Of a stretch of DNA of 64,000 nt, positions 3,255-62,430 are shown in pieces. This DNA is from Cladocopium goreaui (Eukaryota; Sar; Dinophyceae; Suessiales; Symbiodiniaceae), in assembly GCA_947184155.2 (NCBI GenBank), contig CAMXCT020001509.1:74501-138500 (forward strand), in the 5' to 3' direction. The position numbers and the translations under genes were made by a program. The first letter of the stretch is position 1; every line of letters starts with the position of its first letter. The notes under the pieces were generated by a model. That model had not been told where the DNA came from, did not search any database, and worked only from the letters and a program-made list of their open reading frames with translations.

Positions 3255-4021
3255 TGCATTGAACCTAACAAAGCTCGCAGTTGCTTCGTTTCAGCTGGTG
3301 TCAACGGAGGGCTCAATTCTTTTCTCCTTCCCACGGCTACAATCGCAGGCTTGAGACTCTTGTGATACTCAAACATCTGAATCTTGATGACACCTTCAGA
3401 GTCCTGGGAGATGTGCTTGCCACAGTATGTAAAGCCGTCTCTGTCCAAGCTTCCAAACCCAACTGCCTTGCCCAAATCCGCAAATGATTCTTGCCCCTTG
3501 GCATCACCGCCCAGCAACAAATCGTCAACGTGGCTGCGAATGATGCCACGCAACTCACCACATTCATCTCTCAAAGTCCAGCATAAAGCGTCGAGATGAC
3601 TTCTCTTACCTCCACCTTCTTCCAAAGCATCGCTCAAGCCAAACACCCCTCTGCAAAGACCGTCTCCAAAAGGCAAGCGCGGTTCATCAGGGCTGTTGGT
3701 GCGAATGTTTGCTATGTAAAGTTCACATAGACCAGCAATATACGCATCACCCTTCAAAAGCGCAGCCTTGACGTCTGCGCTCAACAGCCTCCAGCCTTTG
3801 TGATACAAACAGCTGTGGTGAAGATCAACAAAAAAGTGCTGTGAGTTTCTACATGCTGTTGGCACGTCCTTTCGGATGGTGTAGGACGTCACGTCCCGAA
3901 ATCCTGGAACAACCAGTCTGGCTGAGGCCAAGATCGGCAGGTCCTTGTCAACGGTGCAAGCTCTATCAATCATTCTTGTCTGTATAAACAAATCGAGGAT
4001 AGAGGACCTTGAAGGTTTCAT
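3161..4021 (-). pseudogene. copia reverse transcriptase (RVT_2 type)
   Basis: A 286-codon minus-strand segment with RVT_2 landmarks: LASARLVVPGFRDV, then LLSADVKAALLKGD (motif A, catalytic D), then IIRSHVDDLLLGGD (motif C, HVDD in place of the usual YVDD), then LRALLGSMQWLVAQLR, the connection to RNase H. The domain is contiguous through motif C, but the frame is lost on both sides. Copies element RNA into cDNA in the family. Unlikely to be active here. Confidence 0.85.
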
Positions 4022-4029
4022 TCTTCCTC

Positions 4030-5050: not shown

Positions 5051-5055
5051 GCACA

Positions 5056-6234
5056 TCATCCCTCTATGGGTGCCCTTGATCTCGCCAGCTCACCGCGACG
5101 AATGCTTCTGGAAAAATGCAACCTGGTCATGGCTACCTTGGCTGTCTCACGCAAGGCTAATTGGCGTGCCATCGACGGATTGGGGTCGATGTGGCCATGT
5201 TCAGCAAGATGCTGAGAAAAGCTGCCCAAAACATCACCAGTCATCCTTGGCTGTCTTCCTAAGGCTGCTTGCCCCGGACTCACTCCAAGCTCATTGATAT
5301 CGGAGCTGGAAGCTCCAACAGCTTCTCCAAGGGCTTCTTCAAACTCATCGAAACCTTGCATCTGGCGCGCATTGACCATTGATGCCAGAATGACACGAAG
5401 TGTGCCTCCAGTTCTTTCACAAACTCCATTTTGCCATGGTGCTCCAAAGCCGCAGTGCCATAGGAGAATGCTGTGACCAGCGCAGAACTCAGCAAGCTCA
5501 TGGCTGATAAATTCTCTCCTTTGGTCTGCCACCAGCGTCCTTGGACATCCAAAGACTGGAAGCCAACGCTTCTTCAGGAAGGAGATCGCATTGGCCGCTG
5601 TCTTCCTTGGCAACAACTCTGCAAGTTGGAAACGAGTGGCATAGTCGATGACACGCACGGCAGTGAACTTGTTGCCTGAGGAGTCATAGACATCAATCAA
5701 ATCAATGCTGGCCTGATCTCCAGCATCCTTTGGCGCAGGAAGGAAAGCTGGACGTCGTGTTTTCGGCCGTCTCTTCTCTTGACATATATCGCATTTGTGG
5801 TGCTTGGCTGCATAAATGGCTTCCGCTGGGGCACCTGAAATGGCAAGTGCACGGGCAAGTCTGACATTGGAATGATGGCGTGTGTTGTCATGAAGGCGTT
5901 TGATGGCTGCCTTCAATCCAGCGGAAATCTTCATGTTTGGCTTCTCCTCCTCCTCAGACGATGCAGAATCATCTTCGCCAGCCGGTTGGCCAAGGTTCAA
6001 CGACTCTTCATCATCAGTAGCCAACTCATACTCTTCCACAGCAAGAACCTCCGTGGACTTTGCAACATCCTTGGGCTTTGAAACCTTGTTATACTCAATG
6101 TCAAACTGCTTCTCAAAACCATCAACCAAAAGTTTCGCCAATCGGTGAGGATAGTGCACAGCCGGGGCTGTGACAGATTTCCCACCAATCACCGGCTGGT
6201 GAGCATGATCGCCAGTGCAAGACTTTCCATCCAA
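5056..6234 (-). pseudogene. copia integrase (zinc-binding plus DDE core)
   Basis: The longest open part of the element (392 codons). An HHCC zinc-binding module is visible: RLHDNTRHHSNVRLARALA followed by HHKCDICQ. The DDE core follows, with D in IDLIDVYD, D in LVADQRREF and E in WQNGVCERTGG. The second motif reads ADQRREF where D-x-G-x-E/D-F is usual, so the site may be altered. The N-terminus and C-terminus break into other frames. The enzyme would insert element cDNA into host DNA. It is adjacent to RT as expected for copia. Confidence 0.85.
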
Positions 6235-6929
6235 AAGTCAGCTTGCAATCCAACTGGACGAGGCAGTTTTCGTGGCCTTTGGTGAAGACCAATATTTCCA
6301 CGCAAACCAAATCTGCACTGATGAAAACAAGCTAAACGGTGGTCATGCTCATCCAAAACCTTGGCCATCTCGGGATGCTTCCAGGCGCCACTAGGTTGAG
6401 GATTCTTAAGCAGGTAGTGTCCTCCACCGTCAGCTTGAATCGCAGCCAGTTCCAGAGCAAATTTCAGTAAAACTTCACCCTCAGCTTGGATCTCATGCAA
6501 ATTGACCCTTGGGTTCAAACGAAGCAGAGGGCCCCAGGGTCCGCAAGGAAAAGCAATCATCAGGAAATAAGCCCGCTCCTTCCGGACAATGGCTTTGGCT
6601 CTCTCGCGATCTTTCTACAGCAAAAAGTTGAATCCCGTCTCCAAGGACAAAGCTGTGCCAGTTTTGTGGCCTCTGCGGGAAGCTTCCTTGCTTACCCGCT
6701 GGGTGTGAGCGTAGACCTCACTGACAAGCGGCTTCACAGCGCGAACAAAAGCTTCATTGAGCCTTTTCTCAATGTCTTGCAAGCATTGAACCTGCAGCAC
6801 TTCGAAAACTTCCTTTGGAGACAGAGAAATCAGCTTGCGGTCATTCTCATGCTGGGTCCAAGCTTGAGAAATCATCTGGGCCACCTTGCTTTCTTTGCCT
6901 TTGCAAAGACCATTCATGTCCATCACCAT
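6189..6929 (-). pseudogene. copia polyprotein segment between gag and integrase
   Basis: Two broken minus-strand ORFs (6929-6615 and 6560-6189). The lower one contains FPCGPWGPLLRLNP and GGHYLLKNPQPSGAWKHPEM, which look like the protease/pre-integrase linker found in dinoflagellate copia polyproteins, though I cannot assign catalytic residues. Frames change on both sides, so this part is no longer co-linear with gag or integrase. Confidence 0.5.
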
Positions 6930-6934
6930 CTAAC

Positions 6935-8154
6935 TCATGTGGTCGCTGGCAAAGGCTGCTCCTCCCTGCCGCACGCTGCTGCCACATCTCTGCATAGTAG
7001 TCGGCATGCAGTTGAGCGATTTCCTCCTCCGAAAGTTCCACTGCGCCATCCATCTCCATGCGCCTCTTCCGGTCCGTCTTCCTCCGCTGTCAACTGTGAA
7101 GGACCCAGGTGCTCGTCTGGCGGCTCGGTCGACGTTGGTGGCAGCATCTGATTTCCTTGCACGTTCATGACGTGCTGGAAGACCTGTGAGAGCATGGTCT
7201 GGAAACGAGCTTCTTGCGCAGCCATCATTTGCTGCACTTGTTGAAGAGGAACATTCTCTTGAGTCTCCGGCAGCTGATGTTGAACAGGAGTCGCTTTTGA
7301 TGGGCCATTTGCCAACTGGGCCGCGGCCGTTGGCACAGGTGTCTCCTGAGAAGGCTTGGCTCCCTCCTTGGCTTCCGGCTTCAACTTGGCTCCTTTTGGC
7401 ATCAACAAATCCACGGGACGACGCTTTTCTCTCAGTATTGCGTCCTTCTCGGCAACCTCTATGTGGAGAAACGCGGCCAACTTGAGCAAATCTTGACGGA
7501 GAGTTGGCAAACCTCCGCGGGGCCCACCAGTTCCCTGACAGCTGCTTCCCACCTTCTCACGCAAAAACCAGGCGACTGTATCCCTTCAGATCGCAAATCA
7601 GCAGCAACAGTGCGGAAACGAGTGCAAAACTCACTAATCCGCTCACCAGGCTTTCTCTTGAGTGAATTGTAAAACTGCTCTCGCAGTTCACCTTTCTTGT
7701 CCAGCTCGCCCTTGCCATTGATACCTTCCAGGGCATCCAGAAGTTTGTTCAATCCAAAAAGGGAACCGGCTTCCTGCAGCACAACCTCAGTGCCAGTGGC
7801 AGGGCCAATGCCTTTGATAGCTTTCTTCGCTTCAAGCTCCTTCGGCGTGAACTCCTCACCACGTTGACGCACCACTCCCGATTGCCTCAGGAACCATCTA
7901 GCAGCTAAGTTGTACTTCATGGGCCGTTCAAGGTCCAAGGATTCCACCCACCAAGACATTTCTCGGCGACATGATCTCCAAGTCGCAGGAGATCCGTCCC
8001 ATGTCGGCACCTTATACCAGCTATACTCGTACCCTTCTCTTCTTCCATGGCCCAAAATGGGCAATCCAGTAAATAATGACTTTTTGATCACGTAAGAGAT
8101 GAACTCGCAAAAGATGTCTCCCCACAGGAAATGAAACAGGCTCAGGGTGTCCAA
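6935..8154 (-). pseudogene. copia gag region, frameshifted
   Basis: Gag-like structural protein segment in two overlapping minus-strand frames (8154-7459, then 7564-6935). The first frame has the tryptophan-rich start (WDGSPATWRSCRREMSWWVE) followed by a helical segment ending EQFYNSLKRKPGERISEF and RFRTVAADLRSEGIQ, as in retrotransposon capsid proteins. The second frame continues with LRQDLLKLAAFLHIE and a Q/P-rich linker. The frame change lies near 7565. I see no canonical ATG at the N-terminus: the longest frame opens at TTG, and the first in-frame Met is well inside. No zinc knuckle was recognised. Confidence 0.65.
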
Positions 8155-8360
8155 CTGACACTAGTTCCCACTTTTAAACGAAGGAATGCAGTTAAACCCC
8201 CGGGGTTTTGCTAACCAAGTGTTTCAACTCTCAACCCAGTCCTTGCCCCGCAGGAGTTCGCAACCAAGATGAAAGGATGTCACACCAAGCCAGCACGCAG
8301 TTAAAGTCAAAAGGCAGAGCGTAGATCGAGCAAATGCCATAGGTCCCCAATGCGAAGCGA

Positions 8361-8377
8361 TTCAGGCTCCGGTGCCA
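8361..8377 (-). other. Primer binding site of copia element
   Basis: Reading the minus strand, one base after the LTR end (..CTACA) the sequence is TGGCACCGGAGCC. A TGG directly inside the 5' LTR is the expected complement of a tRNA 3' CCA end. The spacing resembles the TGGTATCAGAGC-type sites of plant copia elements. Confidence 0.6.
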
Positions 8378-8378
8378 C

Positions 8379-8538
8379 TGTAGATGCAACAAGACGCGGC
8401 AGTGCTGCACCTAAGCGTTTTCCGCCACCTGCATAGCGTATGCCTATTTGGATCAAGCGCTGTACAACTGGGATTGGGGCCATTCGCATCACTACAATGC
8501 ATGTGCCATGCCAACCCTAGCAATCAACAGCATTCACA
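8379..8538 (-). repeat. 5' LTR of copia element
   Basis: A 160-bp copy of the repeat at 1943-2126, sharing the ends TGTAGATGCAAC and CATTCACA and most of the interior. In minus-strand orientation it is the upstream LTR and should carry the element's promoter. Confidence 0.75.
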
Positions 8539-19273: not shown

Positions 19274-20225
19274 ACATATGTGTGTGTGTTTTCGCAGTTA
19301 CTATACAGTAAACAGCATCTTGGAGGTGATATCGACAGAACATACGAACATACATACATACATACATACATACATACATACATACATGCATGCATGCATG
19401 CATGCATGCATGCATGCATGCATGCATGCATATACACGTACGTACGTACGTACATACATACCATTACATTATATTACATTACATTATGTTACCTTACGTT
19501 ACGTTGCGTTGCGTTACACTACATACATACATACATACATACATACATACATACATACATACATACATACATACATACATACAAACATACAAGCATACAA
19601 GCATACAAACATACAAACATACCTACCTACTTACCTACCCACCTACATACCCAACTACGTACATACCATACCATACCATAACATAACGTAACGTAACAAT
19701 ACATAACATAGCATAACATTACATACATACATGACATACAATACATACATTACATTACATCACATCACATCACATCACTTTACATTACATTACATTACAC
19801 AACCAACATTCATACATACATACATACATACAGACTTACTTACTTACTTACTTCCTTCCTCACCTACTTACATTACATACTTACATTACATACTTACATT
19901 ACATACTTACATTACATACTTACATTACATTACATACATACATACACTACATTACATTACAATACATTACATTCCATTACATTACATAACATACATACAT
20001 ACATACAGACATAAATACATACATGCATGCATGCAGGCAGGCAGGCAGACAGACAGACAGACAGAACATACATACAGACAGACAGACATAACATAACATA
20101 ACAAACCATAAAATAACATTACATTACAAAACATTACATTACATTACACAGCATTACATTACATTACGTTACATTACATACATACATACATACACACATA
20201 CATACATACATTACATACATACATA

Positions 20226-20700
20226 CATACATACCATACATACATACCATACATACCATACATACCATACATACCATGCATACCATGCATACCATGCATA
20301 CCATGCATACCATGCATACCATGCATACCATGCATACCATGCATACCATGCATACCATGCATACCATGCATACCATGCATACCATGCATACCATGCATAC
20401 CATGCATACCATGCATACCATGCATACCATACATACCATACATACCATACATACCATACATATCATACATACATACCATACATACATACCGTACATACAT
20501 ACCGTACATACATACCGTACATACATACCATACATACATACATACCATACATACCATACATACCATACATACCATACATACCATACATACCATACAGACC
20601 ATACATACCATACAGACCATACATACCATACATACCATACATACCAATACATACCATACATACCATACATACCATACATACCATAAATACCATACATACA
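20226..20700. repeat. 9-bp subrepeat ACCATGCAT / ACCATACAT
   Basis: Within the larger tract, a run of ACCATGCAT units (about 17 in a row, 20272-20430) grades into ACCATACAT units with 13-bp variants carrying extra ACAT. Confidence 0.9.
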
Positions 20701-22029
20701 TCCATCCATCCACCCATCCACCCACCCATCCATCCATCCTTACATACATACATACCATAACATACCATAACATACCATAACATACTATAACATAACATAA
20801 CATTACATTACATACATTACATACATTACATACATTACATACATCACATGCATTACATACATTACATACATACATTACATACTTTCCATACATTACATTA
20901 CATTACATTACATTACATACATTACATACATTACATTACATACATTGCATACATACATTACATACATACATTACATACTTTCCATACATTACATTACATT
21001 ACATTACATTACATTACATACATTACATACATTACATTACATACATTGCATACATACATTACATACATTACATACATTACATACATTACATTACATACAT
21101 TACATTCATTACATTACATACATTACATACATACATTACATACATTACATACATTACATACATACATTACATACATTACATACATTACATACATACATTA
21201 CATACATTGCATACATTGCGTACATACATTACATGCATTACATACATTACATACATTACATGCATTACATACATTACATACATTACATACATTACATACA
21301 TTACATACATTACGTACATACATGACATACATTACATACATCACATACATTACATACATACGTAAATACATACATACATACATACATACATACATACATA
21401 CCATAACATAACATAACATAACATAACATTTCATAACATAACATAAGATAAGATAAGATTAGGTAAGATAAGATTAGATTAGGTAAGATAAGATAAGTTT
21501 ACATTACATTACATCACATCACATCATTTACATTACATTACACAACCAACATACATACATACATACATACCATACCATACCATACCATACCATACATACT
21601 TACAGACAGACAGACAGAGAGACAGACATACATACATACATACACACACACATACATACATACATACATACATAACATAACATAACATAACATAACATAA
21701 TATATATAACAAAACATAACATTACATTACCTTGCATTGCATTCCATTGCATTGCATTACATTACATTACCATACATACATACATACATACATACATTTA
21801 CTTTACATTACATTACATCACATCACATCACATTACATTACATTATATACATGACATGACATGACATGACATTACATACATACATATATACATACAAATA
21901 CATCCCAATACATCCCAGTACATACCAATACATAGCAATACATACCAATACATACCAATACATACATACCAATACATACATACCAATACATACACACCAA
22001 TACATACATACCAATACATACATACCACT

Positions 22030-22650
22030 ACATACATACCAATACATACATACCATTACATACATACCATTACGTACATACCATTACATACATATCAGTA
22101 CATACATACCATTACATACATACCATTACATACATACCATTACATACATACCATTACATACATACCATTACATACATACCATTACATACATACCATTACA
22201 TACATCCCATTACATACATACCATTACATACATACCATTACATACATACCATTACATACATACCATTACATACATACCATTACATACATACCATTACATA
22301 CATACCATTACATACATACCATTACATACATACCATTACATACATACCGTTACATACATACCATTGTTACAACCATTACATACATACCATTACATACATA
22401 CCATTACATACATACCATTACATACACACCATTACATACATACCATTACATACATACCATTACAGACATACCATTACATACATACCGTTACATACATACC
22501 ATTGTTACAACCATTACATACATACCATTACATACATACCATTACATACATACCATTACATACATACCATTACATACATACCATTACATACATACCATTA
22601 CATACATACCATTACATACATACCACTACATACATACCATTACATACCAA
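22030..22650. repeat. 14-bp subrepeat with 140-bp higher-order unit
   Basis: Units of ACCATTACATACAT repeat about 40 times. The interruption CCATTGTTACAACCATTAC occurs at about 22361 and again at about 22501, exactly 140 bp (10 units) later, and is evidence of a segmental duplication inside the array. Confidence 0.9.
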
Positions 22651-22684
22651 TACATACCATTACATACCATTACATTACATTATA

Positions 22685-22715
<31 letters not shown>

Positions 22716-22890
22716 CATACATACATACACACACAGACATACATACATACATACCTACACTACACTACACTACACTACACTACACTACATTACATTACAT
22801 TACATTACATTACATACATACACACATTCCATCCATCCATCCATCCATCCATACATACATCCATCCATACATACATACATGCATATATCC

Positions 22891-45683: not shown

Positions 45684-45728
45684 CTGCAAGCAATCAGCAT
45701 CAGCGAAAGCATTGATTTCTGTTGAGCC

Positions 45729-47565
45729 ATGGTCCCTGCTCCGGGCACTCCCGTTGGTGGGGAGCGCCCCCGGCGGCGGCCGCCGGAAGGCGCTGGAGGG
45801 GCTGATGCGATGGAGGTCGACCCCGGCAGTCCTGCTGCTCCTAGGCGGCTCTTCTGCCCGGTGGACGGTTGCCCTTGTGCGGATGCTAACTCCGCCCGTG
45901 GGTGGACCTCCGACAGCACCCTGCGAGCACATGTAGATGCTCATTTGGCGGGCTCGCTCAGTGGTCAGGTTCCTTCGGCTTGGCTTCAAGATCGCTCTTT
46001 GCAGCAGTGCTTGGTGTGCGGGTTGTCTGTGTCCACTCGCTTCGGCATCCATCCCACGTGCAGGCCTGCTGCTCGGGCTGTGGGCGGTGCGGTCGGGAGC
46101 GGCCCCAGGGACACTGACGGCCCTCTTCCGTCCTTAGCCGAGATCCAGTGCAGCTACACGCCAACTCTGCGGCATGTTCCCCCTAGCGCCCGCTATGCTT
46201 GGGGGCAAGCACTGACTCGGGCATGTGCGGCGGTGGCTGAATACAACGATGAGGCCGCTTGGGTTCATTTACTTATGCTGCCCAAATGTGTGCTATGCAG
46301 CCCCCGCCGGGGTGGCCGGAAACATCAGCGCACCGCAGCCGCCTTCACCATCGAACGCCTCAAGCGTTGGAATGATGGCGAGCGGGCCTCTTTGTGGGCC
46401 AGTCGGCCTCAGCCGCAGCGGCCCCATGGCCGTGACATGACGGCGGAGCAGAAGCGGGACTTCGCCACCGGCCTTGCCAGAGAAGGCTTCGACAAGAAGG
46501 CCTGCACAGCCTTGCTTTCGCACGGTCTCTGCGACCACTCCCAGGCAACAGTTGCAGCCCTGCGCGCCCTCCACCCCACATCTGCAGCACCAGTCGTCCC
46601 TGCGTTGGAGAGCTTGCCGTTGGCGCCCGGGTTCGATGTCGATGCGGTGACGCAAGCCCTTCGCCGCTTCCCTTCAGACACGGCGCCGGGGCCTAGTGGC
46701 CTCCGCGTGCAGCACGTCTTGGATGCTGTGGGGCATGGCGTCGGGCTCCTGGACCAGCTTACCGCGGTTGTGAACCTCCTGGCCCAAGGGCGGGCTTGTC
46801 CAAGCATTGCTCCACTGCTCGCTGGTGCGGGGCTGGTGGCTTTGCCCAAGCCGTCTGGCGGTATCCGCCCAATAGCGGTAGGCGAGCTTCTTCGCCGCCT
46901 GACCGGCAAATGCCTCATGCAAGCGGTGCGGCCTGAGGCCCGGGACCACTTCTGGCCTGCCCAAGCAGGTGTTGCAGTGCCGGGCGGAGCTGAAGCTGCG
47001 GTCCATGGCCTGCGAGCTTGTGTCAGCCGCCATGCCGCTTCGCACGACTCGGTCGTGGTGAAGGTTGATTTCCAGAACGCCTTCAACACTGTCAGCCGTG
47101 ATGTGGTCTTACAACAGGCCCGGGACAAGTTTCCCGCTCTGGCCCGCTGGAGCACGTGGTGCTACCAGCACGCCACCAACCTCCAGTTCGGAGACACGGT
47201 CCTCCAGTCCAACAGCGGAGTCCAGCAAGGGGATCCCTTGGGACCCTTGCTCTTTGCGGCTGCTCTCCATCCCCTGGCTGCAGCGCTTCGGACCACCGCC
47301 TTGGACTTTTCGGTGTTCTACTTGGACGATGGGGTGCTGGCTGGGCCCATTGATGCGGTGACAGCTGCCCTGTCTCAACTTCAGCAGGCTGCTGGTCGAG
47401 TTGGCTTAGTGTTGAACTTGGGCAAGAGTGAGGCCATCGCTGTGGGCATGACGTCTGCCGCGGCCATTGCGGCCAAGCTACCATCCCAACTTGTGAGCAC
47501 TTCCGATGGCAACAATCGCATTCTCCGTGACTTTGAATTTCTCGGGGCTGGCATTGTGGGCCCGA
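45729..47565 (+). CDS. Non-LTR element ORF, part 1: zinc finger and reverse transcriptase
   Basis: ATG at 45729 follows an in-frame TGA. Residues ~38-75 contain a C2H2-like finger (FCPVDGCPCAD .. LRAHVDAHL). RT landmarks: PGPSGLRVQHVLDAVG (~320), ALPKPSGGIRPIAVGE (~375), VVVKVDFQNAFNTVS (motif A, ~442), GVQQGDPLGPLLF (motif B, ~497), FYLDDGVLAG (motif C, YLDD, ~530) and GLVLNLGKSEAI (~559). The true frame ends near 47565, where the protein continues in the -1 frame; the stop at 47946 is out of register. One lesion makes it a near-intact copy. Confidence 0.85.
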
Positions 47566-47569
47566 GTAT

Positions 47570-48835
47570 TTGCAAAGGCATGCCACTGGTCGAGTTGAGG
47601 GTGCCCGCAAACTTTTGGAAGCCATTGGTGCACTTGAAGATCCACAGGTTGCCCTTCGGCTGCTGCGAGCTTCCGCTGGTTACGCGAGGCTCGTGCATAC
47701 CATGCGGTGCTGCCCACCCGCTGGGCACGAGACTGCATTGGAACAGTTTGACTACCTGGTGCAAGAATGTTTCAGCTCCTTCACTGGTCTGCATGTTGAG
47801 GCTTCTGCGTGGCAACAAGCAAGCCGTGGCTTGGGCCAAGCCGGCCTGGGGCTCCGCTCCACTAAGGTCCATGCGCCAGGTGCCTACCTTGCCTCAGTTG
47901 GCGCTTGTGCCCGACTCTGTGGTGAGCTTGATGGCGGCTACTGGTTAGACCATTCTGGAGATGTGGCCGCCGCTTTGTCGGCACTCAACGCTTGCCTGGA
48001 CCCAACTCAGCAGCTCACTGCCGCCGCTGCCTTGGGGCTCACGCAGAAGGACCTCAGCCGCAGAATAGATGGTGCTGGGTGGCAGGCCCAACTCCACGCA
48101 ACTTCCGCTGTTGGCAAAGCCACGTTGTTGTCGGAGGCAACGCCTGGTGCTCGGGCCTTTCTGACCTGTGCGCGGTCCGGCCGCACACGCATGGAGCCAG
48201 CGGTGTTCGTGGCTGAGATCCGGGTCCGTCTGGGCATTGCAGAAGCTGCTGCCGACACATGGTGCCCCAAATGCGATGCCATTCTGGACACGCATGGGTA
48301 CCATGCTGGCATGTGCATGGCTGGTGGGGAGCGTACACTTCGCCACAACGCCCTTCGTGACCTGGTTCACAGTTGGGCCGAACGAGGATGTCTTCGCCCT
48401 GAGCGTGAGAAGGCTGGCCTGCTTCTCCCACAACGACCTGATGATGCGGCCAGTGCCCGACGCCGCCCTGCGGATGTGTTTCTCCCGTCCTTCCTTGGAC
48501 GCCCAACTGCACTTGACTTTGCCGTCACGGCACCCCAGCGGTTGGACGCCCTTGGTGGTTCAGGAAACACTTCTGCTGCGGAGGCATATGGTGCTTACAA
48601 GCGCCGGCACCTGGACACAGCTGATGCATGCGCAGCCCAGCACGTGACCTTCCTCCCCATGGTGATTGAAACCACGGGCGCTTGGGCGCCGGAGGCGGCC
48701 CAAGCCTTGGCTCACATCAGCCGCGCTGCTGGAGGCGGCGCAGGCGGGCCCACCTTGTTGCAGGAAACCTGCGTGCTGGTGCGTAGCTGGAGGGGCCGTG
48801 CTGCTCTGCGGCGCCGTGCTGAGCTCGTTGCTTGA
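47570..48835 (+). CDS. Non-LTR element ORF, part 2: thumb, zinc knuckle, endonuclease
   Basis: Continues in the -1 frame relative to part 1: ATGRVEGARKLLEAIGALED and PQVALRLLRASAGYARLVH (thumb-like). Then CPKCDAILDTHGYHAGMC, a C-x2-C-x6-H-x2-H-x3-C knuckle. Then RRPADVFLPSF .. ALDFAV with a later AYKRRHL, fitting the P-D...D...K pattern of the restriction-like endonuclease. Stop TGA at 48833. Needs a one-base change or -1 frameshift near 47557-47568 to join part 1. Confidence 0.8.
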   Translation: MQRHATGRVEGARKLLEAIGALEDPQVALRLLRASAGYARLVHTMRCCPPAGHETALEQFDYLVQECFSSFTGLHVEASAWQQASRGLGQAGLGLRSTKVHAPGAYLASVGACARLCGELDGGYWLDHSGDVAAALSALNACLDPTQQLTAAAALGLTQKDLSRRIDGAGWQAQLHATSAVGKATLLSEATPGARAFLTCARSGRTRMEPAVFVAEIRVRLGIAEAAADTWCPKCDAILDTHGYHAGMCMAGGERTLRHNALRDLVHSWAERGCLRPEREKAGLLLPQRPDDAASARRRPADVFLPSFLGRPTALDFAVTAPQRLDALGGSGNTSAAEAYGAYKRRHLDTADACAAQHVTFLPMVIETTGAWAPEAAQALAHISRAAGGGAGGPTLLQETCVLVRSWRGRAALRRRAELVA

Positions 48836-51840: not shown

Positions 51841-52092
51841 AAAGGAGCGGTTCCCTTTCACCTTCGGAACCACTTGTAGCGGTCCCCACATCTATTCACA
51901 TCTGTTCACATGTTGCTTTTGACATGGGGCAAATGTCACTGCTATATTTTGACACCCCGCCTCCAAACCTTCGTTTTAGAATGGTTCGGCCTTTCTCTGT
52001 ACTGCAGCATGTTCCATCCTATCTGCTAGCACCGCAGGAACAGTCTGGATCCTTGTTGTCACATTTATTGGTGCTTCTACAAAGCCCTCCCT

Positions 52093-52440
52093 CTAACGCC
52101 TAAAGCTGCTAGAAAGTCTTGACGATGAAGGCCGCACCGCGACTCGGCTATGGTGTTCTCCACTGCCACCATCACCATCGGGGTACTCCTCGTCATAGTC
52201 GTAGTCTGATCTGCCACGACCATCTCCATCGTCTCTTCCATCAGCACTGCCGGGATCGTCTTGATCATCTCCAGGCTGTGATGGGTCGTCATCTGTTTCT
52301 GATTCTTCACCTTCCCCAGCTAAACTTCCTGCCTCTGTGTCTGGCTCCTCGAAGAAGAAATCTGCATGTCGATCGTCATCAAGCCAACTCTTAGTCTGCT
52401 CTGCAGTTTCAATCCACAACTCTGCTCTGCCAGATTGAAA
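52093..52440 (-). pseudogene. 3' part of an ORF split by the LTR element
   Basis: Minus-strand frame FQSGRAELWIETAEQTKSWL, then a strongly acidic tail (FFFEEPDTEAG, DDDPSQPGDDQDDPGSADG) and R/S-rich end with stop at 52093. Its first codon directly continues the frame that ends at 62190 once the element and one copy of the target duplication are taken out. No family recognised. Confidence 0.6.
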
Positions 52441-52445
52441 TTTCA

Positions 52446-54005
52446 TGTAGAAAAAGCGCCGTGCACAGATCTGCGGTCAGATCCAACGCTTCATCAAAAT
52501 TCCTACAGAACTACGCAGGCAGACGCGTACGTCAACCACGCACACCAAACACAAGCGCAGAGCGTAAATTCACAAACCTAATTAGACTAAAGCAATACCG
52601 TGTCAAAAGGATTGTTTCACCCTCGACTCCCACGTGCTGACGTCAAGCTCCTTCTTTTCGCTCCAGACGCAACACGATCAGTCACGGGAAAACAAAAACA
52701 CAACAAACAAACAAACCAAAACCGGGAAAGAGGAAGATGTGTTCCCTGTGTCGGTCTGTCTTATGTCAAGCTATGTGACACAGCAGCTCTTGTTCATTAA
52801 ATGAACTTCTGACACCAGTCCTTCGAGCCGATGTCTCAACTGGTAAACTCGATTCCAGGTTTCCAGTTAACAAACCTCAAGTTCTTCAAATAAAGGTCTG
52901 TTGAAACTATTCCAGCTGCTACAAGTCTACAAAACTCAATTTCACTAGATGAATTCAAAACATCGAAACACTTCCAAAAGTTCTCAAATCAAACTGGTTC
53001 TCATCCAAACGTGAATAACCAGCTCATTAGTCACAAGCTGACTAACTTCTCAAGAACGAAGTGGTTCACACAAGGTATCTGTACAACCTTCTTCTGGATA
53101 CAAAACATAGTCAGAACACAACGTTCCTTCTCCAAATCAGATTTCCACATAGAGATAGCATCTCACAGCTTCAAACCTCAATGTAGAACAGAATGTTCTG
53201 CTCGACATTGTCAATGTAGGTCAGCCAAATACAGTTGTATCGCTGAAGTCTTTCGACCACTGCAATAGCCAATCCACAATGTAGACCAAAGTCTTCTCAA
53301 AACAATGTCGTCCTCATAGAGGTAACCAAAGTCTTCTCAGGAACGATAAAATGCACACCATAAGACCAAGTGTATGATCCATAGGTCACGATGACGATGA
53401 TGTAGGTATTGTCCTCACAATACTGAAACATCTCATCACAAAACTCTCAGACAAATAAGATGAGCCAATGTGGCCATTGTCCTCACAATGCCAATGCATC
53501 TCAAGGTCCAAGACTCAAAATATAGTAGGTTCTCTCCATCAGATATTTCCAGCTAGCTTAAACTCTTCTCCAAGAGTTTCTAGCTGTGTTCTCATCACTT
53601 GGAGAGAATAAACTTCTCAGTGTCGAATACACAATACAAAATCTCAATGTCAAACCAATGTAGGTATCTTCAGCTCAAGCAATAAGCTGTACCAGACTCA
53701 AGTCGAATCCAGAATAAGATGTAGAACTGATCAATATACCACAATCAGGTCAACACTGATGAATGACATCTCAAGATGTCAAAAAATGGTAAGTCCAAAG
53801 ACTCATAGAATATTGTCACAATGCGCCGGTTTCTTCCGCAACAAGTAGAGTGTTCTCTACCAATCTTCCGCGTCATGTGTAAGCGATGAACTCTTGCAGT
53901 AGCCTTCCACGTATCTTCTGTGCATAAAACTATACAACCATGATGAATGGCATGTCGCTTCACCCTTACCCAGAGGGTGCTCCCACAGGGTGTCAAATTT
54001 CCATA
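52446..54005 (-). repeat. 3' LTR of the young element
   Basis: 1560 bp; starts (plus strand) TGTAGAAAAAGCGCC and ends CAAATTTCCATA. Nearly identical to 60641-62184. The main difference is an extra CAACAAACAAACAAACC-like stretch near 52695. Confidence 0.93.
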
Positions 54006-54014
54006 CCCCCTTTC
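54006..54014 (-). other. Polypurine tract of the young element
   Basis: GAAAGGGGG on the minus strand directly abuts the 3' LTR, as expected for the plus-strand primer. Confidence 0.8.
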
Positions 54015-54377
54015 GACATGACATCTCATCCATTCACATCACTGCCATGTACGGATACCAATAGTATTCGCTGATCCGCAGAAAAATGTTCATGTTCCAG
54101 ATCACATTCATGATCAAAAGATAGTCAAAGAAGAACACGTCTTCCAAAACACAAAGTAGATGATCTTTATCATCCAAAACTCATCTCGTTCGATTCATGC
54201 ATAATGTCGTAACTTCCAAATTCAAAATCTTCTCTGTCGCGAAAACCAGATGTAGGAATACCAGACTCAGTCCAAAGACTCCTGAGGTCTTTCCAGTACT
54301 AAACTTGTCTTCCAAAATCCAGTTCTTCGGATAAACCATGGCGTCAATAACGATGTATCTACAGTGCTGTTGCCTTC

Positions 54378-54389
54378 CTACAACAAACA

Positions 54390-54425
<36 letters not shown>

Positions 54426-54475
54426 ACAACAACAACAACAGAACAAAACAAACACACACACACACACACGAGACC
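54378..54475. repeat. (AAC)n and (CA)n microsatellite
   Basis: About 20 AAC units then a short (CA)n run inside the young element. Confidence 0.95.
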
Positions 54476-55447
54476 CAAGACGAAGCCTAACGTCACACGA
54501 TCGGAGTCAACACGAAAACAAAGGCCAACTGTTTCAGCTAATCCGCACCTTCATGTAGAAGGTAGGCGTATGAAAAGAAAACGAAAGTGAAATAATATCA
54601 CTCATGCAACTCATCTCAAATTCAAAGCAAGTGAAGTACAGTTCACAGTCACTGCACAACGAATTCAAAACACTCTGAATGAAAATCGTTCACAGTTAGG
54701 GTTCAGGCTAGCTAAGTTCGGCACAATGTTCGCTATCCCCCTTTCAACGTCTGATCCATCCTAACGATCTCGAAGGTGTGATATATCTTGTTTAAGTCCA
54801 TATCATGACATGACAATGCAATGTGTCTGCAATCATGGCATCAGATTCCCCGGAAGATTTTCCGATTAGTTAGACTCAGATTCCGTCTGAGTTTCTTCCC
54901 AGGTTCTCATCATTTGCCATGACAACTCAATTGTACCACATGTACATTATCAAGTTCCAAAAAAAACTAAAGCATCAAGACATGAACATACAAATTCAAA
55001 ACCATGTCCAATACAATCAAGTTCAATCAAACACAACGTCAACACAACATCAACTTCTATTCATGATGTCTCCCTCAGATCTGTTAGCAACTCCAAGTTC
55101 TGAATGCCTTCAAGAACGTTGCTCTCGCCATCGTCATTGAGAGACATATGACAACAAAACGAACCTCAAACAACTAACAGAACAACATGCAAACAGTGCT
55201 ATCCAGCATCAGCTTACACTCAAGACACAACGCAAACTCAAAACTGGTCTTGGAATCTTCCGTTCCAAGGCAAATCAGCTCCAAGTCGTTTCACTCGGCA
55301 CATCCCCCCTTTTAAACTCACGCTTGATCTCTTTACTCAGCCATATCGTCTTATTGGAAAACAACGAGTGAACCTCGAGTTGACAAAAATAGTCAGCTAT
55401 TCTCTCGTCGTCACAACAGACGAATTCAGGTGCCTTTGGCACCCTTC

Positions 55448-56604
55448 TCAGGGGTATACCCGCCGGTATTCGCTCGTCCCCTTTATCTGGACGTACCCTA
55501 GCGGGGCAAATGCCGCTGTACCCGTTGCCGGGTCATGGCGACCAGTGGGTGATACGCACCGAATGCGGCCCGTAGACTCCTCAAGTACTTGGCAAGGTGG
55601 AGTCTTGATATCTGTCACTTCTCTCTGCAAAGGGTAGCTCATCGGTAACTCCCCCATTTTAGCCGGACTGTAGCCCACAAACTTCGCCACAGGAAGGGGT
55701 GGCTGCGGTGGTACCATGGGCTTTGGTGGCACCATGGGTGGTACCGCCGGTGGAGGCGGGATCCCAGGGCTAACAGCCAAGCCAGGTGCCGGTGTCAATG
55801 GTGTCACTGATGGAATGCCCAGGTGTCCATTGGAGGTTGAGGTGGATCATAGTCCATGGTTACTTCTTGACCTACCGGTGCCTTTTCGATTCTCACAGCA
55901 ATCTTCTGCATATTTTCTTGTAGTTTGTCCATCGATTCGAAAAGCTGGGTCATCAGGTCCTGCAGAGCTTGGTCTCGCTCCGTGCGGTTCTTGGCGTTTT
56001 TCTTGAGCACCTCTCCCATGGACACATCCATTGCCCACTCCAGGTGTTTTCTCAAATTGGAGTATTCCCCACATACCGCACCCACGCGGCCAGTATTGTG
56101 GCTCACACCAGCAGTCAATGATTCTACTGCTCTCGACATGTTGTTCACTGCCGAGCCCACCGTCTCTAGGCTACGGCAAAGGTCTTGCTGAAGAGTCTGC
56201 AAATTCTGGATGAGAATCTCCAGCTTCGCGCTCGAACCCTTCAATGCAGCGATCATCGACGTGACCCCGATAGCCAAGGCCGTGGTGGAAGCCAGGAGGC
56301 TTGCCGGGTCATTGGGGTCTGGTTCAGGGACCCTTGGTCTGGGAGACCTTGACCGGTCCTCATCTCTTTCCTCTTTGTCTGCCGGTGATTTGTTGCCTTC
56401 CTCAGGATGAGGGATACCTTGCTCTTCTCCTTTCTCTGATTCCGCATCCACAGTTCCTGCCTGTGCCGGCAGTGGCGGATTCTCAGACAGGGGAAACTCC
56501 GATGCTGCTGGAAGCGCGGCGTTCGCCATGAATCTCTCAAGACGTCGAGTGAGAGCTTGATGCACCCGTTGGGAGAGACCCGGGCCAAGATACAGCTTGG
56601 GCAT
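55448..56604 (-). CDS. Coiled-coil and proline-rich ORFs in the young element
   Basis: ATG at 56604, 266 codons: Arg-rich start (LTRRLERFMANAAL), acidic/Ser linker (DEDRSRSPRPRVPEPDPNDP), then a long heptad-like region (KLEILIQNLQTLQQDLCRSL, LFESMDKLQENMQKIAVRIE). Stop at 55804. A second frame overlaps in -1 register (CAGTGA, read GTG ACA) and continues APGLAVSPGIPPPPAVPP with PPQPP repeats to 55448. A -1 frameshift would fuse them. The shape resembles a gag-like scaffold but has no capsid signature. Confidence 0.5.
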
Positions 56605-57259
56605 ACTCTGCGTCCCAACTTCACATTCCAATCTTGTATTCCAGCTTGCATCGACAATGCAACCAGATGTCAAGATCAACCATTCAACAGACTACAAACT
56701 CCCTTCTTCTCACCCTAAGGTGTGTGACGCACACCTTAACAGATGATTCACATTTCCGACAAAGATCACACTCACTACTACCCCAAGATGCGTGCCGCAC
56801 ATCTTGACAGGTAATATGTGATCGACCAAACTTCAATGTCTCAGACAAAACAAAAATAATGCAAACTTGTGGCAAACTGCAAACTTAATCCACATCCAAC
56901 TGCCAATGCATGCACAACTCTTCACAAAACTGCAAAACAGATCACAGTGGTTTCTGCGCATAAAACCCATAGACATGTCATGCAGTAAAAATGAAAACTC
57001 ATGCAAAGCTCGTGACAGCTGACAAAACTACTCACGCTGAGTTCCACAAGTCCAAGTTCCGTCCAGTCCGAAATCGTCCAAAACTCTGAAATTCCAAGAC
57101 ATCTCAAGAATTGTTATTCCACTCCAATCTCAACTTGACAGCTCTTTCGTCGCAGCTTTTGCATTTCTCCTCACAGCTGTCGGCGGCTTCCAAGCCTAGC
57201 ACTACCACCCGGCCTGGAACCACTACAAAAACCTATACATTGGGAGGAAACCTGCCCAC

Positions 57260-57617
57260 TCAGACGATCTTGTGAGCGTCCGCGGCAAACTTGTACAACA
57301 AGTTTCCATTCTCGTCGAATTCCAAAGCCTTCATAGTGCCTTGCCAACGATATTCGTTGGGCTTGTACTTCAGAAGGATCCCCGCCTCGGCCTTCTGGAG
57401 ATAGCCAATGGCGGTCAATTCGACCTCAAGCACAGAACTCACCCTTGGGACCTTCTGGCGTCCAATCATTGAAGTACTGCGCACGTTTAACGGCAGCAAT
57501 CGGGTCTTTTCGTAGTCCAAACCTTTTGGAATATTCGTCAGGCTGGATCTCCTTGCCATTGTTCAAGTCCTCAAACTGCTTAGGAGTCAGAGCCAACCAA
57601 AGACGAATGGATTCCAT
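57260..57617 (-). CDS. Unknown ORF pair in the young element, two frames
   Basis: ATG at 57617: ESIRLWLALTPKQFEDLNNG, KEIQPDEYSKRFGLRKDP, then a stop at 57426. An overlapping frame to 57260 reads VELTAIGYLQKAEAGILLKY and QGTMKALEFDENGNLLYKFA. The two halves look like one ~120-residue protein broken or spliced near 57450 (PEGPKG). A GTGAGT donor-like site lies at the break. No family recognised. Confidence 0.45.
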
Positions 57618-57859
57618 TGCCGTTGATGCCAAAGGATCTCGAAGCGGTCGTTAGGGCAGCTGAAATGCAAAACCCTGAGCCAAAGTTGCCTTATAGTAAA
57701 ACAACAAAAGATAGAATGGAACCTATACAGACATGAGAAGTCCAAACAAGAGGTCAAGTCAAGTCCAACAGAACACACAGCTCCATACTTCGTCTCTCAC
57801 TTAGACAGCATGTCGAGCAACGAACTGACATCACATTCACATTACTTCCAGTCAGTTTC

Positions 57860-59460
57860 ACGTTTTGGAACCTATGCAGATCGTCTCGTCGCCTCTGCCG
57901 TCCAGTTCCCTATTTCTCTCTTTCTGATTTAATCTGTTATCTGAGCCTATGCACGTCTGCAACCCAGCTCATGTGTGAACCTTGCAACGTCTTGCAATCT
58001 GGTACACGTTTTGACTTTCTACAACCTTTCTTTTCTTTTGGAACCTATGCAGATCGTCTAGTCGCCTCTGCCGTCCAGTTCCCTATGGACCTATGCAGCG
58101 CCTCTGCCATCCAGCCCATTTCTTTCTTTTTGTTGTAAGTCAAAACTCTTTCAATTCAAAAAGTTGCAAATCTCAAATCCCAGATTCCCTCTTTTGCTTT
58201 TCACTCTGAGCAACACGCCAACGCAAAACTACACTTCCGTTCTACTCATCTCTCAGGATACTCTGCAAAGTCTGGTAGTACAAGATGTCCAACCAACATG
58301 GCCCAAGGTTCGCAAAGGAAACCCTCCAGGGTCGACTAACACCAAATCCATCTTGTTCGCAAACTACCAAAGAAAGTGCCATGCCCAACGTAGGCAAATG
58401 ACGCTGGCAATCATCATCGCAAAGATGATCAGGTTCATTTCACAGACAAGATTGACTTGCAGATGTCCCCAAACTCATGCCATTCATTTCGAGAGATATG
58501 CTACGGTATAGCTGCTCTAAGCCAAAAGAGAAAAACTGCCATTCAGGTTATCTTCACACAAAGTTCAGTCAGTCTGACAACAACTCCAGAGTACCTGTCT
58601 GTCTCAGGGTTCAGTGTACCTTCTCTGCATCCGCCCCAGTCTTTACGAATACATCCGTTCCAGGTTTCACAAAAACAAACTGCAACAATCCAAGCAACGT
58701 AAGTCATACCTGACCTGCCTGCGACTCTGCACAACTGTTCAAATTCCGGTCAAAGAAAACATAAAAGCAAACTCACAACAAAGTTTCCTGTTTCGTTTCA
58801 AAATACAGTTCAAAACAGTTTCCACTTCCTACACAGTTTAGGTCGTTTCCATCGACTTACAGTAATACATGCTCAACTCCAACACCTCCACAACTGCAGT
58901 TCAAACCATGGATGTTACCTGATGCATCTGAGAAATCAAGATCAACATTCCCAAACAGGCGGTGTCCACATGTCACCTTTCTCTCACTCCGTTGTCAACC
59001 AACATTCTCAACACCAAGTTCCACTGTGCCTTCAGTGCCATGACGGTTCCTATTCATCTCTCTGTTTCTCAGCACTCCAGTACCTATACTGCCAGGCAAA
59101 CAACAATGCTTCAGGCTTTAATCTCCAGGTTACCAGTCAGTGCAAACATCCGTCAAGCCCCACCGTTCCTGCACACTATCGAACCTCAGGTGTTCAACTA
59201 CTCACGTCTTATCTCACAAATGTGGCAACTAAACCAAGGTCACTGACAAAGCAAACTCGACCCTCCAGGTTCTCATGCCAAAATTTCTCTTTCCAACTAC
59301 CATCTCCAGGCATGACGCCAGGCTCAGTAGCACCACGCACTGTGCACTCCGTGCGTCCAGGATCAACTACAACCTGACCAACCTGTCGAGATGTAACTCT
59401 TTCTTACAGTACTTTTCTAGTATGGACCTATGCAGCTCCCTGCCATCCAGCCCATTTCCT
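57860..59460. repeat. Recurring CCTATGCAG...CCATCCAG motif
   Basis: GGAACCTATGCAGATCGTCT with GCCTCTGCCGTCCAGTTCCC occurs at about 57868 and again at about 58039. Shorter relatives (GGACCTATGCAGC .. CCATCCAGCCCATTTC) occur at about 58087 and 59424. Non-coding repeats in the element interior. Confidence 0.7.
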
Positions 59461-59499
59461 TTCTAATTCCTTTTCAATGCTTTCTAGTGATTCTCCAGG

Positions 59500-59640
59500 C
59501 ACTCTCTCTCTCTCTCTCTGCCAAAATCACCAAGCTTCCTAGTGACTCCCCAGGCTCTCGTTGCCAAAGTCACCACAACAATCTCTCTCTCTCTCTCTAG
59601 CGACTCTCCAGGCTCTCTCTCTCTCTCTCTCTTGCCAAAG
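59500..59640. repeat. (CT)n microsatellite, three runs
   Basis: Three CT runs joined by GACTCTCCAGG-type spacers. Confidence 0.95.
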
Positions 59641-59805
59641 TCACTAAACCTCTTACACAATAAAACGCAAATCACACATGCAACGCAACTCAGTGTGTTG
59701 CAGCTCAGTCGTTGTCACCTATTTTCCTCAAGCTTACCACTTTTGTCAGGAACTCCATCGCCTATATCTACCACATCTATCATACAACAATGGGTCACAG
59801 GTATT

Positions 59806-60099
59806 TCAACCTTGCAGTGTCCTGTGGTATCTGCCTAAGATATGCTCACGCATCTCACAAATCTGCCTCTGCATTTCGGTTTCCAAATCTCTGAGATGGT
59901 CACGGAACATCGCTATGATGTCTCGTTGGTTCGCATTCAGACGAACATCTTCAAGCAACGGCAAAAGCCATTCCAATAGAACAAGCAAAGTCTGCATCAG
60001 CCGAAAGACACTCGTCACCTTCTCTAATCCGATAATCCAACCAATGTACTGTTCCTCCATTGCTTCACGTAATGGCCGGTTGTCGCGGCGATTGTCCAT
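59806..60099 (-). CDS. Small helical ORF in the young element
   Basis: ATG at 60099, 97 codons. VTSVFRLMQTLLVLLEWLLP is hydrophobic, followed by a charged helical segment FRDHLRDLETEMQRQICEM. It is the first ORF after the 5' LTR, the place of gag. No capsid or zinc knuckle motif. A coiled-coil or membrane-associated role is only a guess. Confidence 0.5.
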   Translation of the reverse strand: MDNRRDNRPLREAMEEQYIGWIIGLEKVTSVFRLMQTLLVLLEWLLPLLEDVRLNANQRDIIAMFRDHLRDLETEMQRQICEMREHILGRYHRTLQG

Positions 60100-60628
60100 T
60101 CTTAGTACAGATCGGATGGCGATACTTTTCTTGAGCTTAAACGCTTCGGTTCCTAATTTATTTTTGCTGCAATTTTAATCAAAATCCAGTGGTTTTCTCA
60201 ACTTCTACATTCAAGGACTTCTAGGCCAGTTGTCGGAGTCCCTATTGTCCAAACACCTCACTTGTGTCTCCAGGACCTACTCCCAACCTCAGCCTACCGA
60301 GATACTCCAAGCACTTCAAAAACATGTCGTCTCCGGCAATCAATTGACAAGCCACCTTCAACAAATGACCTTACAGCCAGCATGCCAAATAAATGAAGTG
60401 AGACAAAACACGTCACCTGAATCAAGAATACTCAAGCTCTTCGATGCCCTTGACTTTACATCAGCAATGTACCAACCTAGTGTCGACTGCAAATCCTTAG
60501 TATAAGCTCAACACAGATCTCGCAAAAACCTAGGAGCTCAGTACAAACGATCTCAGCTTCACCTTAGATGGTGTCCTTAGTACACTGCAACAAGGGTCAG
60601 CGGAGAATGGTGTGGGTAGCTCCGTAGA

Positions 60629-60640
60629 GCTCCGCTACCA
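60629..60640 (-). other. Primer binding site of the young element
   Basis: Minus strand reads TGGTAGCGGAGC immediately after the LTR, 9 or 10 of 12 bases as in the classical initiator-Met site. The following TCTACGGAGCTACCCA makes an imperfect inverted repeat with it. Confidence 0.85.
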
Positions 60641-62184
60641 TGTATAAAAAGCGCCGTGCACAGATCTGCGGTCAGATCCAACGCTTCATCAAAATTCCTA
60701 CAGAACTACGCAGGCAAACGCGTACGTCAACCACGCACACCAAACACAAGCGCAGAGCGTAAATTCACAAACCTAACTAGACTAAAGCAATACCGTGTCA
60801 AAAGGATTGTTTCACCCTCGACTTCCACGTGCTGACGTCAAGCTCCTTCTTTTCGCTCCAGACGCAACACGATCAGTCACGGGAAAACAAAACCGGGAAA
60901 GAGGGAAAGAGGAAGATGTGTTCCCTGTGTCGGTCTGTCTTATGTCAAGCTATGTGACACAGCAGCTCTTGTTCATTAAATGAACTTCTGACACCAGTCC
61001 TTCGAGCCGATGTCTCAACTGGTAAACTCGATTCCAGGTTTCCAGTTAACAAACCTCAAGTTCTTCAAATAAAGGTCTGTTGAAACTATTCCAGCTGCTA
61101 CAAGTCTACAAAACTCAATTTCACTAGATGAATTCAAAACATCGAAACACTTCCAAAAGTTCTCAAATCAAACTGGTTCTCATCCAAACGTGAATAACCA
61201 GCTCATTAGTCACAGGCTGACTAACTTCTCAAGAACGAAGTGATTCACACAAGGTATCTGTACAACCTTCTTCTGGATACAAAACATAGTCAGAACACAA
61301 CGTTCCTTCTCCAAATCAGATTTCCACATAGAGATAGCATCTCACAGCTTCAAACCTCAATGTAGAACAGAATGTTCTGCTCGACATTGTCAATGTAGGT
61401 CAGCCAAATACAGTTGTATCGCTGAAGTCTTTCGACCACTGTAATAGCCAATCCACAATGTAGACCAAAGTCTTCTCAAAACAATGTCGTCCTCATAGAG
61501 GTAACCAAAGTCTTCTCAGGAACGATAAAATGCACACCATAAGACCAAGTGTATGATCCATAGGTCACGATGACGATGATGTAGGTATTGTCCTCACAAT
61601 ACTGAAACATCTCATCACAAAACTCTCAGACAAATAAGATGAGCCAATGTGGCCATTGTCCTCACAATGCCAATGCATCTCAAGGTCCAAGACTCAAAAT
61701 ATAGTAGGTTCTCTCCATCAGATATTTCCAGCTAGCTTAAACTCTTCTCCAAGAGTTTCTAGCTGTGTTCTCATCACTTGGAGAGAATAAACTTCTCAGT
61801 GTCGAATACACAATACAAAATCTCAATGTCAAACCAATGTAGGTATCTTCAGCTCAAGCAATAAGCTGTACCAGACTCAAGTCGAATCCAGAATAAGATG
61901 TAGAACTGATCAATATACCACAATCAGGTCAACACTGATCAATGACATCTCAAGATGTCAAAAAATGGTAAGTCCAAAGACTAATACAATATTGTCACCA
62001 TGCGCCGGTTTCTTCCGCAACAAGTAGAGTGTTCTCTACCAATCTTCCGCGTCATGTGTAAGCGATGAACTCTTGCAGTAGCCTTCCACGTATCTTCTGT
62101 GCATAAAACTATACAACCATGATGAATGGCATGTCGCTTCACCCTTACCCAGAGGGTGCTCCCACAGGGTGTCAAATTTCCATA
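60641..62184 (-). repeat. 5' LTR of the young element
   Basis: 1544 bp; starts (plus) TGTATAAAAAGCGCC and ends CAAATTTCCATA. As upstream LTR of a minus-strand element it should contain the promoter. Confidence 0.93.
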
Positions 62185-62189
62185 TTTCA

Positions 62190-62430
62190 CCAAGAGATTC
62201 TGCAAATTTCGAAGTAGACGTCGAAGACGTCGTTGTTCTTGAGGATCTTGTTCCAACGGGATGTAATTTGACAAATTGGCGCGATTCAGGACAACCAGGC
62301 TTTCAGGTCCAATGCCTTGCATGATTTGATCCCACCTGTAGTCGTCCAGCGCATCCGGTGCACCAGGGACAGGCATGATTCGCCACAGGCACACTGCACA
62401 AGAAATAGCTGCAGTCATTGACAATGCCAA
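62190..62430 (-). pseudogene. 5' part of an ORF split by the LTR element
   Basis: Minus-strand frame DALDDYRWDQIMQGIGPESL, VVLNRANLSNYIPLEQD, then LRRLLRNLQNLLVK up to the target duplication. A possible acceptor (TTCTTGTGCAG) precedes it near 62392. Upstream pieces (62540-62460, AKQVSRRIAMDKVMDMQAER; 62911-62636 and 62883-62473) may be earlier exons. No family recognised. Inside the LTR the frame runs on by chance. Confidence 0.6.

Follow-up and report, generated by a model that had tools for sequence, protein, structure and literature searches.

A family of large long terminal repeat (LTR) retrotransposons without pol, here referred to as ABC, is present in the dinoflagellate Cladocopium goreaui. 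One young copy of this non-autonomous family lies on the minus strand at positions 52446-62184 of the window, that is, the whole stretch of 64,000 nucleotides analysed here (contig CAMXCT020001509.1, positions 74,501 to 138,500; assembly GCA_947184155.2). The family is probably moved in trans by the Gag-Pol of a copia-type family represented by the places C201 and C535, with its own three proteins (A, B and C) acting in cis and a set of units resembling box C/D small nucleolar RNAs (snoRNAs) serving as RNA structures. Of interest are the three selected proteins in a pol-less passenger, the identification of a candidate helper, and the C/D-like units.

Structure of the element and its insertion site

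The initial annotation, made from the window alone, had claimed that LTRs, target site duplication (TSD), primer binding site (PBS) and polypurine tract (PPT) were all present and correctly placed, and each was located at its expected position:

60641..62184, minus strand: 5' LTR, 1544 bp, starting TATGG and ending ATACA
52446..54005, minus strand: 3' LTR, 1560 bp, at a Kimura two-parameter (K2P) distance of 0.0111 from the 5' LTR
60629..60640, minus strand: PBS TGGTAGCGGAGC, directly inside the 5' LTR
54006..54019, minus strand: PPT, ending TGTCGAAAGGGGG, directly before the 3' LTR
52441..52445, strandless: TSD copy 1, TTTCA on the plus strand; the joined flanks form an open host frame
62185..62189, strandless: TSD copy 2, TTTCA on the plus strand

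Two LTRs, a short TSD, a PBS and a PPT in this order define an LTR retrotransposon, and the placement of PBS and PPT identifies the minus strand of the window as the RNA-sense strand. Read in this sense, the PPT GAAAGGGGG immediately adjoins the 3' LTR, just as the PBS adjoins the 5' LTR; the interior spans 54006-60640 (6635 bp), and the full layout is LTR-PBS-A-hairpins-B-C-two C/D-like units-PPT-LTR. The PBS presumably matches the 3' end of an initiator-Met-like tRNA; ARAGORN found no tRNA in the window. The LTR termini are TATGG..TACA with a 5-bp TSD in ABC and TGTGA..TACA in C201/C535, compared with the canonical TG..CA.

The two LTRs differ by 17 substitutions (nine transitions and eight transversions) and one gap in the alignment that gives the K2P distance above; a second alignment shows 14 substitutions and two indels. 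Both counts are close to the dozen or so sites first estimated. When the flanks are rejoined with a single TTTCA, a host open reading frame (ORF) runs uninterrupted across the insertion site. The two halves of this minus-strand frame (51980-52440 and 62190-62430), which may belong to a host gene or an older mobile gene, gave no significant Pfam match.

Copies of the family in the genome

The genome searched was that of the window itself (1,165,616,438 bases in 6202 contigs). A search with the LTR gave at least 41 matches at 88-100% identity, including the two of the window (best 40 of 1238 candidates scored), and ten further two-LTR copies with the ABC architecture were retrieved, in which the matched interior pieces are 72-95% identical. 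The element is one copy of a large family. Because each of these ten copies has flanks of its own at another place in the genome, the 1.5-kb repeats of the window are not an assembly duplication, an alternative that had been raised at the outset. An exact 5-bp TSD was read in six of the seven other copies open to this test, the exception being C1972 (C2370a, C2370b and C458 were outside the test), and the LTR pairs of the ABC copies show K2P distances of 0.0013-0.0188 (11 pairs). Some ABC copies are incomplete, namely C458 and C107 in the 5' LTR and C2370b in the leader and A.

Protein B was found at at least 150 places (150 of 150 scored; 764 candidates), all with at least 90% identity and 148 of them stop-free. 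Protein C was found at at least 134 places (134 of 134 scored; 772 candidates), and a divergent protein C query gave at least 101 (101 of 101 scored; 6846 candidates). The 16-mer that joins the LTR end to the PBS has 365 exact occurrences genome-wide, against none for its reversed control, and is shared by several families.

Two of the copies have unusual arrangements. At G000:C2370:67326-84855 (L013-L015) a tandem LTR-interior-LTR-interior-LTR structure was observed, with a PBS past the last LTR and more B and C matches downstream, which suggests LTR-LTR recombination. The C1972 copy holds a nested insert of about 10.6 kb (L026 4378 to L027 5028) with ORFs of 703 and 1035 aa and a 150-bp direct repeat (99%), for which no Pfam match was found at E ≤ 0.01.

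Absence of pol

It had been claimed that the interior contains no reverse transcriptase (RT), integrase or protease, and a Pfam profile search of the six interior frames at E ≤ 1 indeed found none of these and no RNase H; the sole family listed was Med11 (E 0.067). Since Pfam found the integrase (E 2.7e-7) but missed the decayed RT of an old copia-like element in the same window, this null result alone is no proof of absence. A stronger argument is provided by the lone long sense ORF: the sense strand of the window element contains a single ORF of at least 180 aa (295 aa), and the maximum reached in 500 shuffles is 238. Across the 11 copies, no sense ORF of at least 180 aa was found besides C and one nested insert. 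The lack of pol in two-LTR copies, which characterizes non-autonomous LTR elements, was thus observed by Pfam in the window copy and by ORF length in the ten others. Antisense ORFs in the copies, up to 310 aa long, were given no weight, because shuffling the antisense strand of the window interior yields lengths of up to 330.

Proteins A, B and C

The interior had been described as holding only small unknown ORFs. Their small size was not upheld, as they are remnants of three conserved proteins of greater length, which are open in many other copies; in this copy the frames of two are broken:

59806..60099, minus strand: protein A, an intact frame of 97 aa, predicted to form a hairpin of two helices
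57260..57617, minus strand: protein B, frame-broken here and 124 aa long in other copies
55448..56604, minus strand: protein C, frame-broken here and about 400 aa long in other copies

Pooled ratios of nonsynonymous to synonymous differences (pN/pS) in open frames are 0.20 for A (8 of 11 copies), 0.09 for B (6 of 11) and 0.30 for C (7 of 11; C6135, C824, C2628 and the window copy left out as short), the pairs not being independent because some copies are close relatives. As judged from these alignments, all three proteins are under purifying selection, with dN/dS well below 1. Only weak matches, under the cut-offs where one is listed, were obtained for A, B and C in Pfam, NCBIfam and PHROGs, no Gag or zinc-knuckle model was matched, and single-protein and profile searches of the PDB gave nothing convincing. 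The suggestion that the element carries unknown proteins of its own is therefore retained. Protein A is predicted to fold as a two-helix hairpin (83.6), a shape too simple for a fold search to be meaningful; protein C consists of a coiled-coil-like part followed by a Pro-rich part, and the predicted fold of its window version is weak (pLDDT 55.7, single sequence). A programmed frameshift in B was ruled out, since six other retrieved copies have a single open frame.

A probable copia-type partner

The first 100 of the 365 PBS places were classified against incomplete lists of B, C and copia RT, the last comprising 150 of 7362 candidates. B and/or C was found at the expected distance from 48 places and a listed copia RT from 13, with no place having both. 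Similarly, the 355 places with B or C (150 for B and 205 for C, many from the same elements) include none within 10 kb of the 150 listed copia RTs. Ten PBS places left unassigned by these lists were sampled: C89 is ABC, C313 matches a copia polyprotein, and C201 and C535 represent another copia family; by eye, C67 is copia-like and C75, C93, C635 and C835 are protease-like, the remaining one being C77.

The search for an autonomous partner with the same LTR ends thus led to C201/C535. C535 has LTRs of about 850 bp and matches RVT_2 (E 2.1e-18) and zf-CCHC (E 7.9e-6), with a weak sub-cut-off match to Pol_BBD, and the C201 pieces encode, by reading, nearly the same polyprotein, the C201 3' LTR being found in part. 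Over about 54 bases, the PPT/LTR-start junction aligns to that of ABC with a score of 60 (C201) or 55 (C535), which none of 2000 base shuffles reached (maxima 39 and 31); for the control C279, an unrelated copia, the score is 16, reached by 483 of 2000 shuffles. The end of the LTR and the PBS are likewise common to ABC and C201/C535 over CTACA and the adjoining TGGTAGCGGAGCT, and the S2 hairpin unit described below occurs in both the ABC interior and the C201/C535 LTR. Tested as a partner, the C279 type, in which about 4.3 kb separate the RT from the same PBS, was rejected because its LTRs share little with ABC beyond the PBS and four LTR bases.

The shared signals are the ones on which tRNA priming, plus-strand priming and integration depend. 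Because C201/C535 encodes RT and a zinc knuckle and has the PPT/LTR-start junction, the LTR end and the PBS in common with ABC, it is the likely mobilizer of ABC in trans. The proposal of a non-autonomous family with its own proteins and foreign enzymes is in this way supported in outline, mobilization being inferred from the matching signals of a pol-bearing family. The sharing corresponds to criteria iii and iv in the section of the wheat study that treats the Wilma/Sabrina/WHAM families (PMC9744471, section 13).

Two further features of the partner family were observed. An extra sense ORF of 209 aa lies between pol and the 3' LTR (L062 2848-3474; L061 2906-3532), with no Pfam match for the L062 version, and a repeated Cys motif, D.GCVLA..CDSCT, stands between the zinc knuckle and the protease-like motif of the polyprotein (L065, L066, L050 and L052).

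Box C/D snoRNA-like units

Three units with box C/D-like geometry were identified in the element:

61709..61787, minus strand: box C/D-like unit S1 of the 5' LTR
53530..53608, minus strand: box C/D-like unit S1 of the 3' LTR
55066..55147, minus strand: S2, box C/D-like unit with C box ATGACGA, also in the C201/C535 LTR
54831..54923, minus strand: S3, box C/D-like unit

The 90-bp block shared at S2 forms a hairpin. Beside a terminal stem it has a box C, which reads ATGATGA in the partner and ATGACGA in ABC, and a box D (CTGA). A scan for the pattern stem, RTGATGA, CTGA, stem gave five matches on the sense strand of the element, none on the antisense strand and none elsewhere in the window. With a stem of at least 7, three matches were found (one unit in both LTRs and one interior unit), compared with a mean of 0.01 and a maximum of 1 in 200 shuffles. 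In a laxer scan the units were found on the sense strand only: S1 in 20 of the 21 LTRs, S2 in all 11 interiors and S3 in 8 of these. That scan also gave weaker sense matches (a second LTR motif with a stem of 6-7, and one in L022). Over ten copies, identity to the window copy is 97.1% for S2 and 96.2% for S3 but 72.8% for the 141 bp between them. Pairwise diversity of S1 is 0.016 versus 0.057 for the LTR; as it ranks 11 of 148 windows, S1 is among the conserved parts of the LTR and is not unique.

A fourth, unrelated unit (S4) lies in the LTR of the pol family C75, within a segment missing from C835. S1-S4, four unrelated sequences, have the common geometry stem-N-C box...CTGA-stem, which is that of box C/D RNAs (terminal stem, RTGATGA and CTGA) apart from one C-box mismatch in ABC S2. 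No unit was seen in the LTR pieces read from C279, C144, C770, C490, C67, C313 and C835. Genome-wide, an S2 25-mer occurs 547 times (control 0), and among 100 listed occurrences 16 same-strand pairs 9.35-9.65 kb apart were counted by reading, which fits the spacing of the helper LTR pair. One S2 copy, in the flank of C201 (L063), runs in the opposite direction.

A role as snoRNA-type RNAs is inferred from this geometry. A guide function is disfavoured by the internal pairing of S1 and S3, which leaves little free guide sequence, and by the lack of any Rfam match above threshold for the units (no match in the window at the gathering threshold). By E-value, weak matches to the plant C/D families snoR44 and snoR31 were obtained on S1 and S3 (24-27 bits versus cut-offs of 45-48) and none at S4 or the S2 of the partner. 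A large-subunit (LSU) pattern search of the genome gave 0 places. Among the titles listed in a survey of the open literature, none concerned C/D-like units in LTR elements.

As a separate observation, a segment of about 116 bp with S4 (L055 1637-1752) is present in one LTR and gone from another of the same family (L056), with a flanking repeat of about 23 bp; the S4 unit may be mobile by itself.

Proposed mechanism and alternative explanations

In the mechanism that we favour, the Gag-Pol of the copia family would package ABC RNA, reverse transcribe it with the shared tRNA as primer and integrate the resulting DNA, and would need little beyond the shared end signals to do so. A, B and C may be kept because they favour their own RNA in cis, through assembly, trafficking or competition for helper particles, and the C/D-like units might bind a host protein of the 15.5K/Snu13 type and thereby affect transcript stability or nucleolar passage. 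Several observations weigh against this mechanism. The PBS of ABC is also found in several pol families (at least 13 of the first 100 PBS places have a listed copia RT, and further families share it) and is therefore not specific by itself; 39 of these 100 places match neither list; the LTR bodies of ABC and C535 have no homology past the ends; no homologues of A, B or C were found in the partner pieces at E ≤ 1; and the DNA of protein C is only 77% identical, below much of the non-coding interior (87-89%). The breadth of the PBS, or more exactly of the 16-mer, also leaves some room for mobilization by a different pol family, such as another copia lineage with the same tRNA primer, in which case the likeness to C201/C535 would reflect shared ancestry only. 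We regard this as unlikely, since C201/C535 is the only family with the ABC junction among those whose LTR start was seen: C279 lacks it, and C75/C835, compared by LTR start alone without PPT, begin with TGTGAATATATGG, unlike ABC (C144, C770, C490, C67 and C313 were left out of the comparison). Far less probable still is a decayed autonomous element whose pol was deleted from the window copy. Two of the three proteins are indeed broken in that copy, but its LTRs are only 1.1% apart, ten other copies have no pol-sized ORF, and A, B and C are conserved instead; for the copies examined, this explanation is already refuted.

The C/D-like units have a more serious competitor, to which we give somewhat less than even chances, namely that S1-S4 are ordinary foldback repeats or repeats resembling miniature inverted-repeat transposable elements (MITEs), with coincidental C and D boxes. 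The internal pairing of S1 and S3, the presence of S4 in one LTR and its absence from another of its family, the Rfam results and the C box of ABC S2, one base off the consensus, would all agree with this. On the other hand, four unrelated sequences share one geometry, the shuffles almost never produce it (although two of the three matches are the same unit in two LTRs), and S2 and S3 are far better conserved than the spacer between them. A broader extension of the favoured mechanism is tentative: at least three LTR families (ABC, C201/C535 and C75) may carry C/D units, mostly in the LTR, that confer RNA stability or nucleolar passage, with ABC a satellite that has a unit and the end signals in common with its helper and brings three accessory proteins of a novel kind. 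Because the LTR is present twice, C/D units may lie close to each end of the genomic RNA, as in a small nucleolar long non-coding RNA (sno-lncRNA).

Comparison with known systems

Large retrotransposon derivatives (LARDs) resemble ABC in being large and non-autonomous and in having structured stretches without coding function; their interior is described as non-coding, whereas that of ABC has three selected ORFs. To our knowledge, pol-less LTR families are mostly non-coding or Gag-carrying. Retroposed snoRNAs resemble the ABC units in being C/D-like RNAs carried by retroelements; those known to us are moved by long interspersed nuclear elements (LINEs), whereas the ABC units sit in the LTRs and interiors of LTR elements. 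A pol with integrase before RT, the mark of Ty1/copia elements, is absent from ABC, and the likely partner has RVT_2.

In the relevant passages of PMC9744471, wheat families of the Wilma/Sabrina/WHAM type are, like ABC, high-copy, without RT or integrase, and probably cross-mobilized by an autonomous family. Their homology to the helper is there reduced to the PBS, the LTR termini and a short LTR motif, whereas ABC and its likely helper have the start and end of the LTR, the PPT and an RNA hairpin unit in common; they bear Gypsy-type names (RLG), whereas the ABC partner is copia-type, and conserved proteins like the three of ABC are not described in those passages. As presented in the same source, BARE2 resembles ABC in its parasitic dependence on a related copia element, BARE1, but lacks only a working gag, whereas ABC lacks pol altogether. 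TR-GAG, in the parts of PMC8704663 that concern it, is likewise a protein-coding LTR element without pol; it encodes Gag, a domain not found in A, B or C.

Since a passenger keeps three unrelated and strongly selected proteins, these would give its own RNA an advantage within the cycle of another element, and ABC may be compared to a virus satellite with its own genes. With a helper named, the partnership becomes testable. If the C/D-like units are true snoRNA-type RNAs, they would connect LTR elements with the biology of nucleolar RNA.

Other hairpins and features of the window

Two further groups of sense-strand hairpins lie between A and B:

57860..58130, minus strand: three of the four H1 hairpins
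59417..59468, minus strand: the fourth H1 hairpin
59476..59660, minus strand: three H2 hairpins

Fold z-scores are -2.5 to -3.2 for H1 (four in the window) and -1.8 to -2.5 for H2 (three), and by pattern H1 occurs in all 11 copies and H2 in 10 of them. Covariation in H1 is modest, as two compensatory pairs were found in four copies. The best conserved DNA of the interior comprises S2, S3, the PPT, B and H1; the H2 block (75%), like protein C, falls below much of the non-coding interior.

Elsewhere in the window, the old copia-like element mentioned above (1943-8478, minus strand) contains an integrase (rve, E 2.7e-7, just under the Pfam cut-off) and RT-like remains, and its sequence at the PBS place differs from the ABC PBS. 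A LINE-like ORF with RVT_1 (45726-48835, plus strand; E 2.4e-17) lies within a GC-rich block (0.58-0.63), and a 3.5-kb simple-repeat array of the ACAT type occupies 19340-22885.

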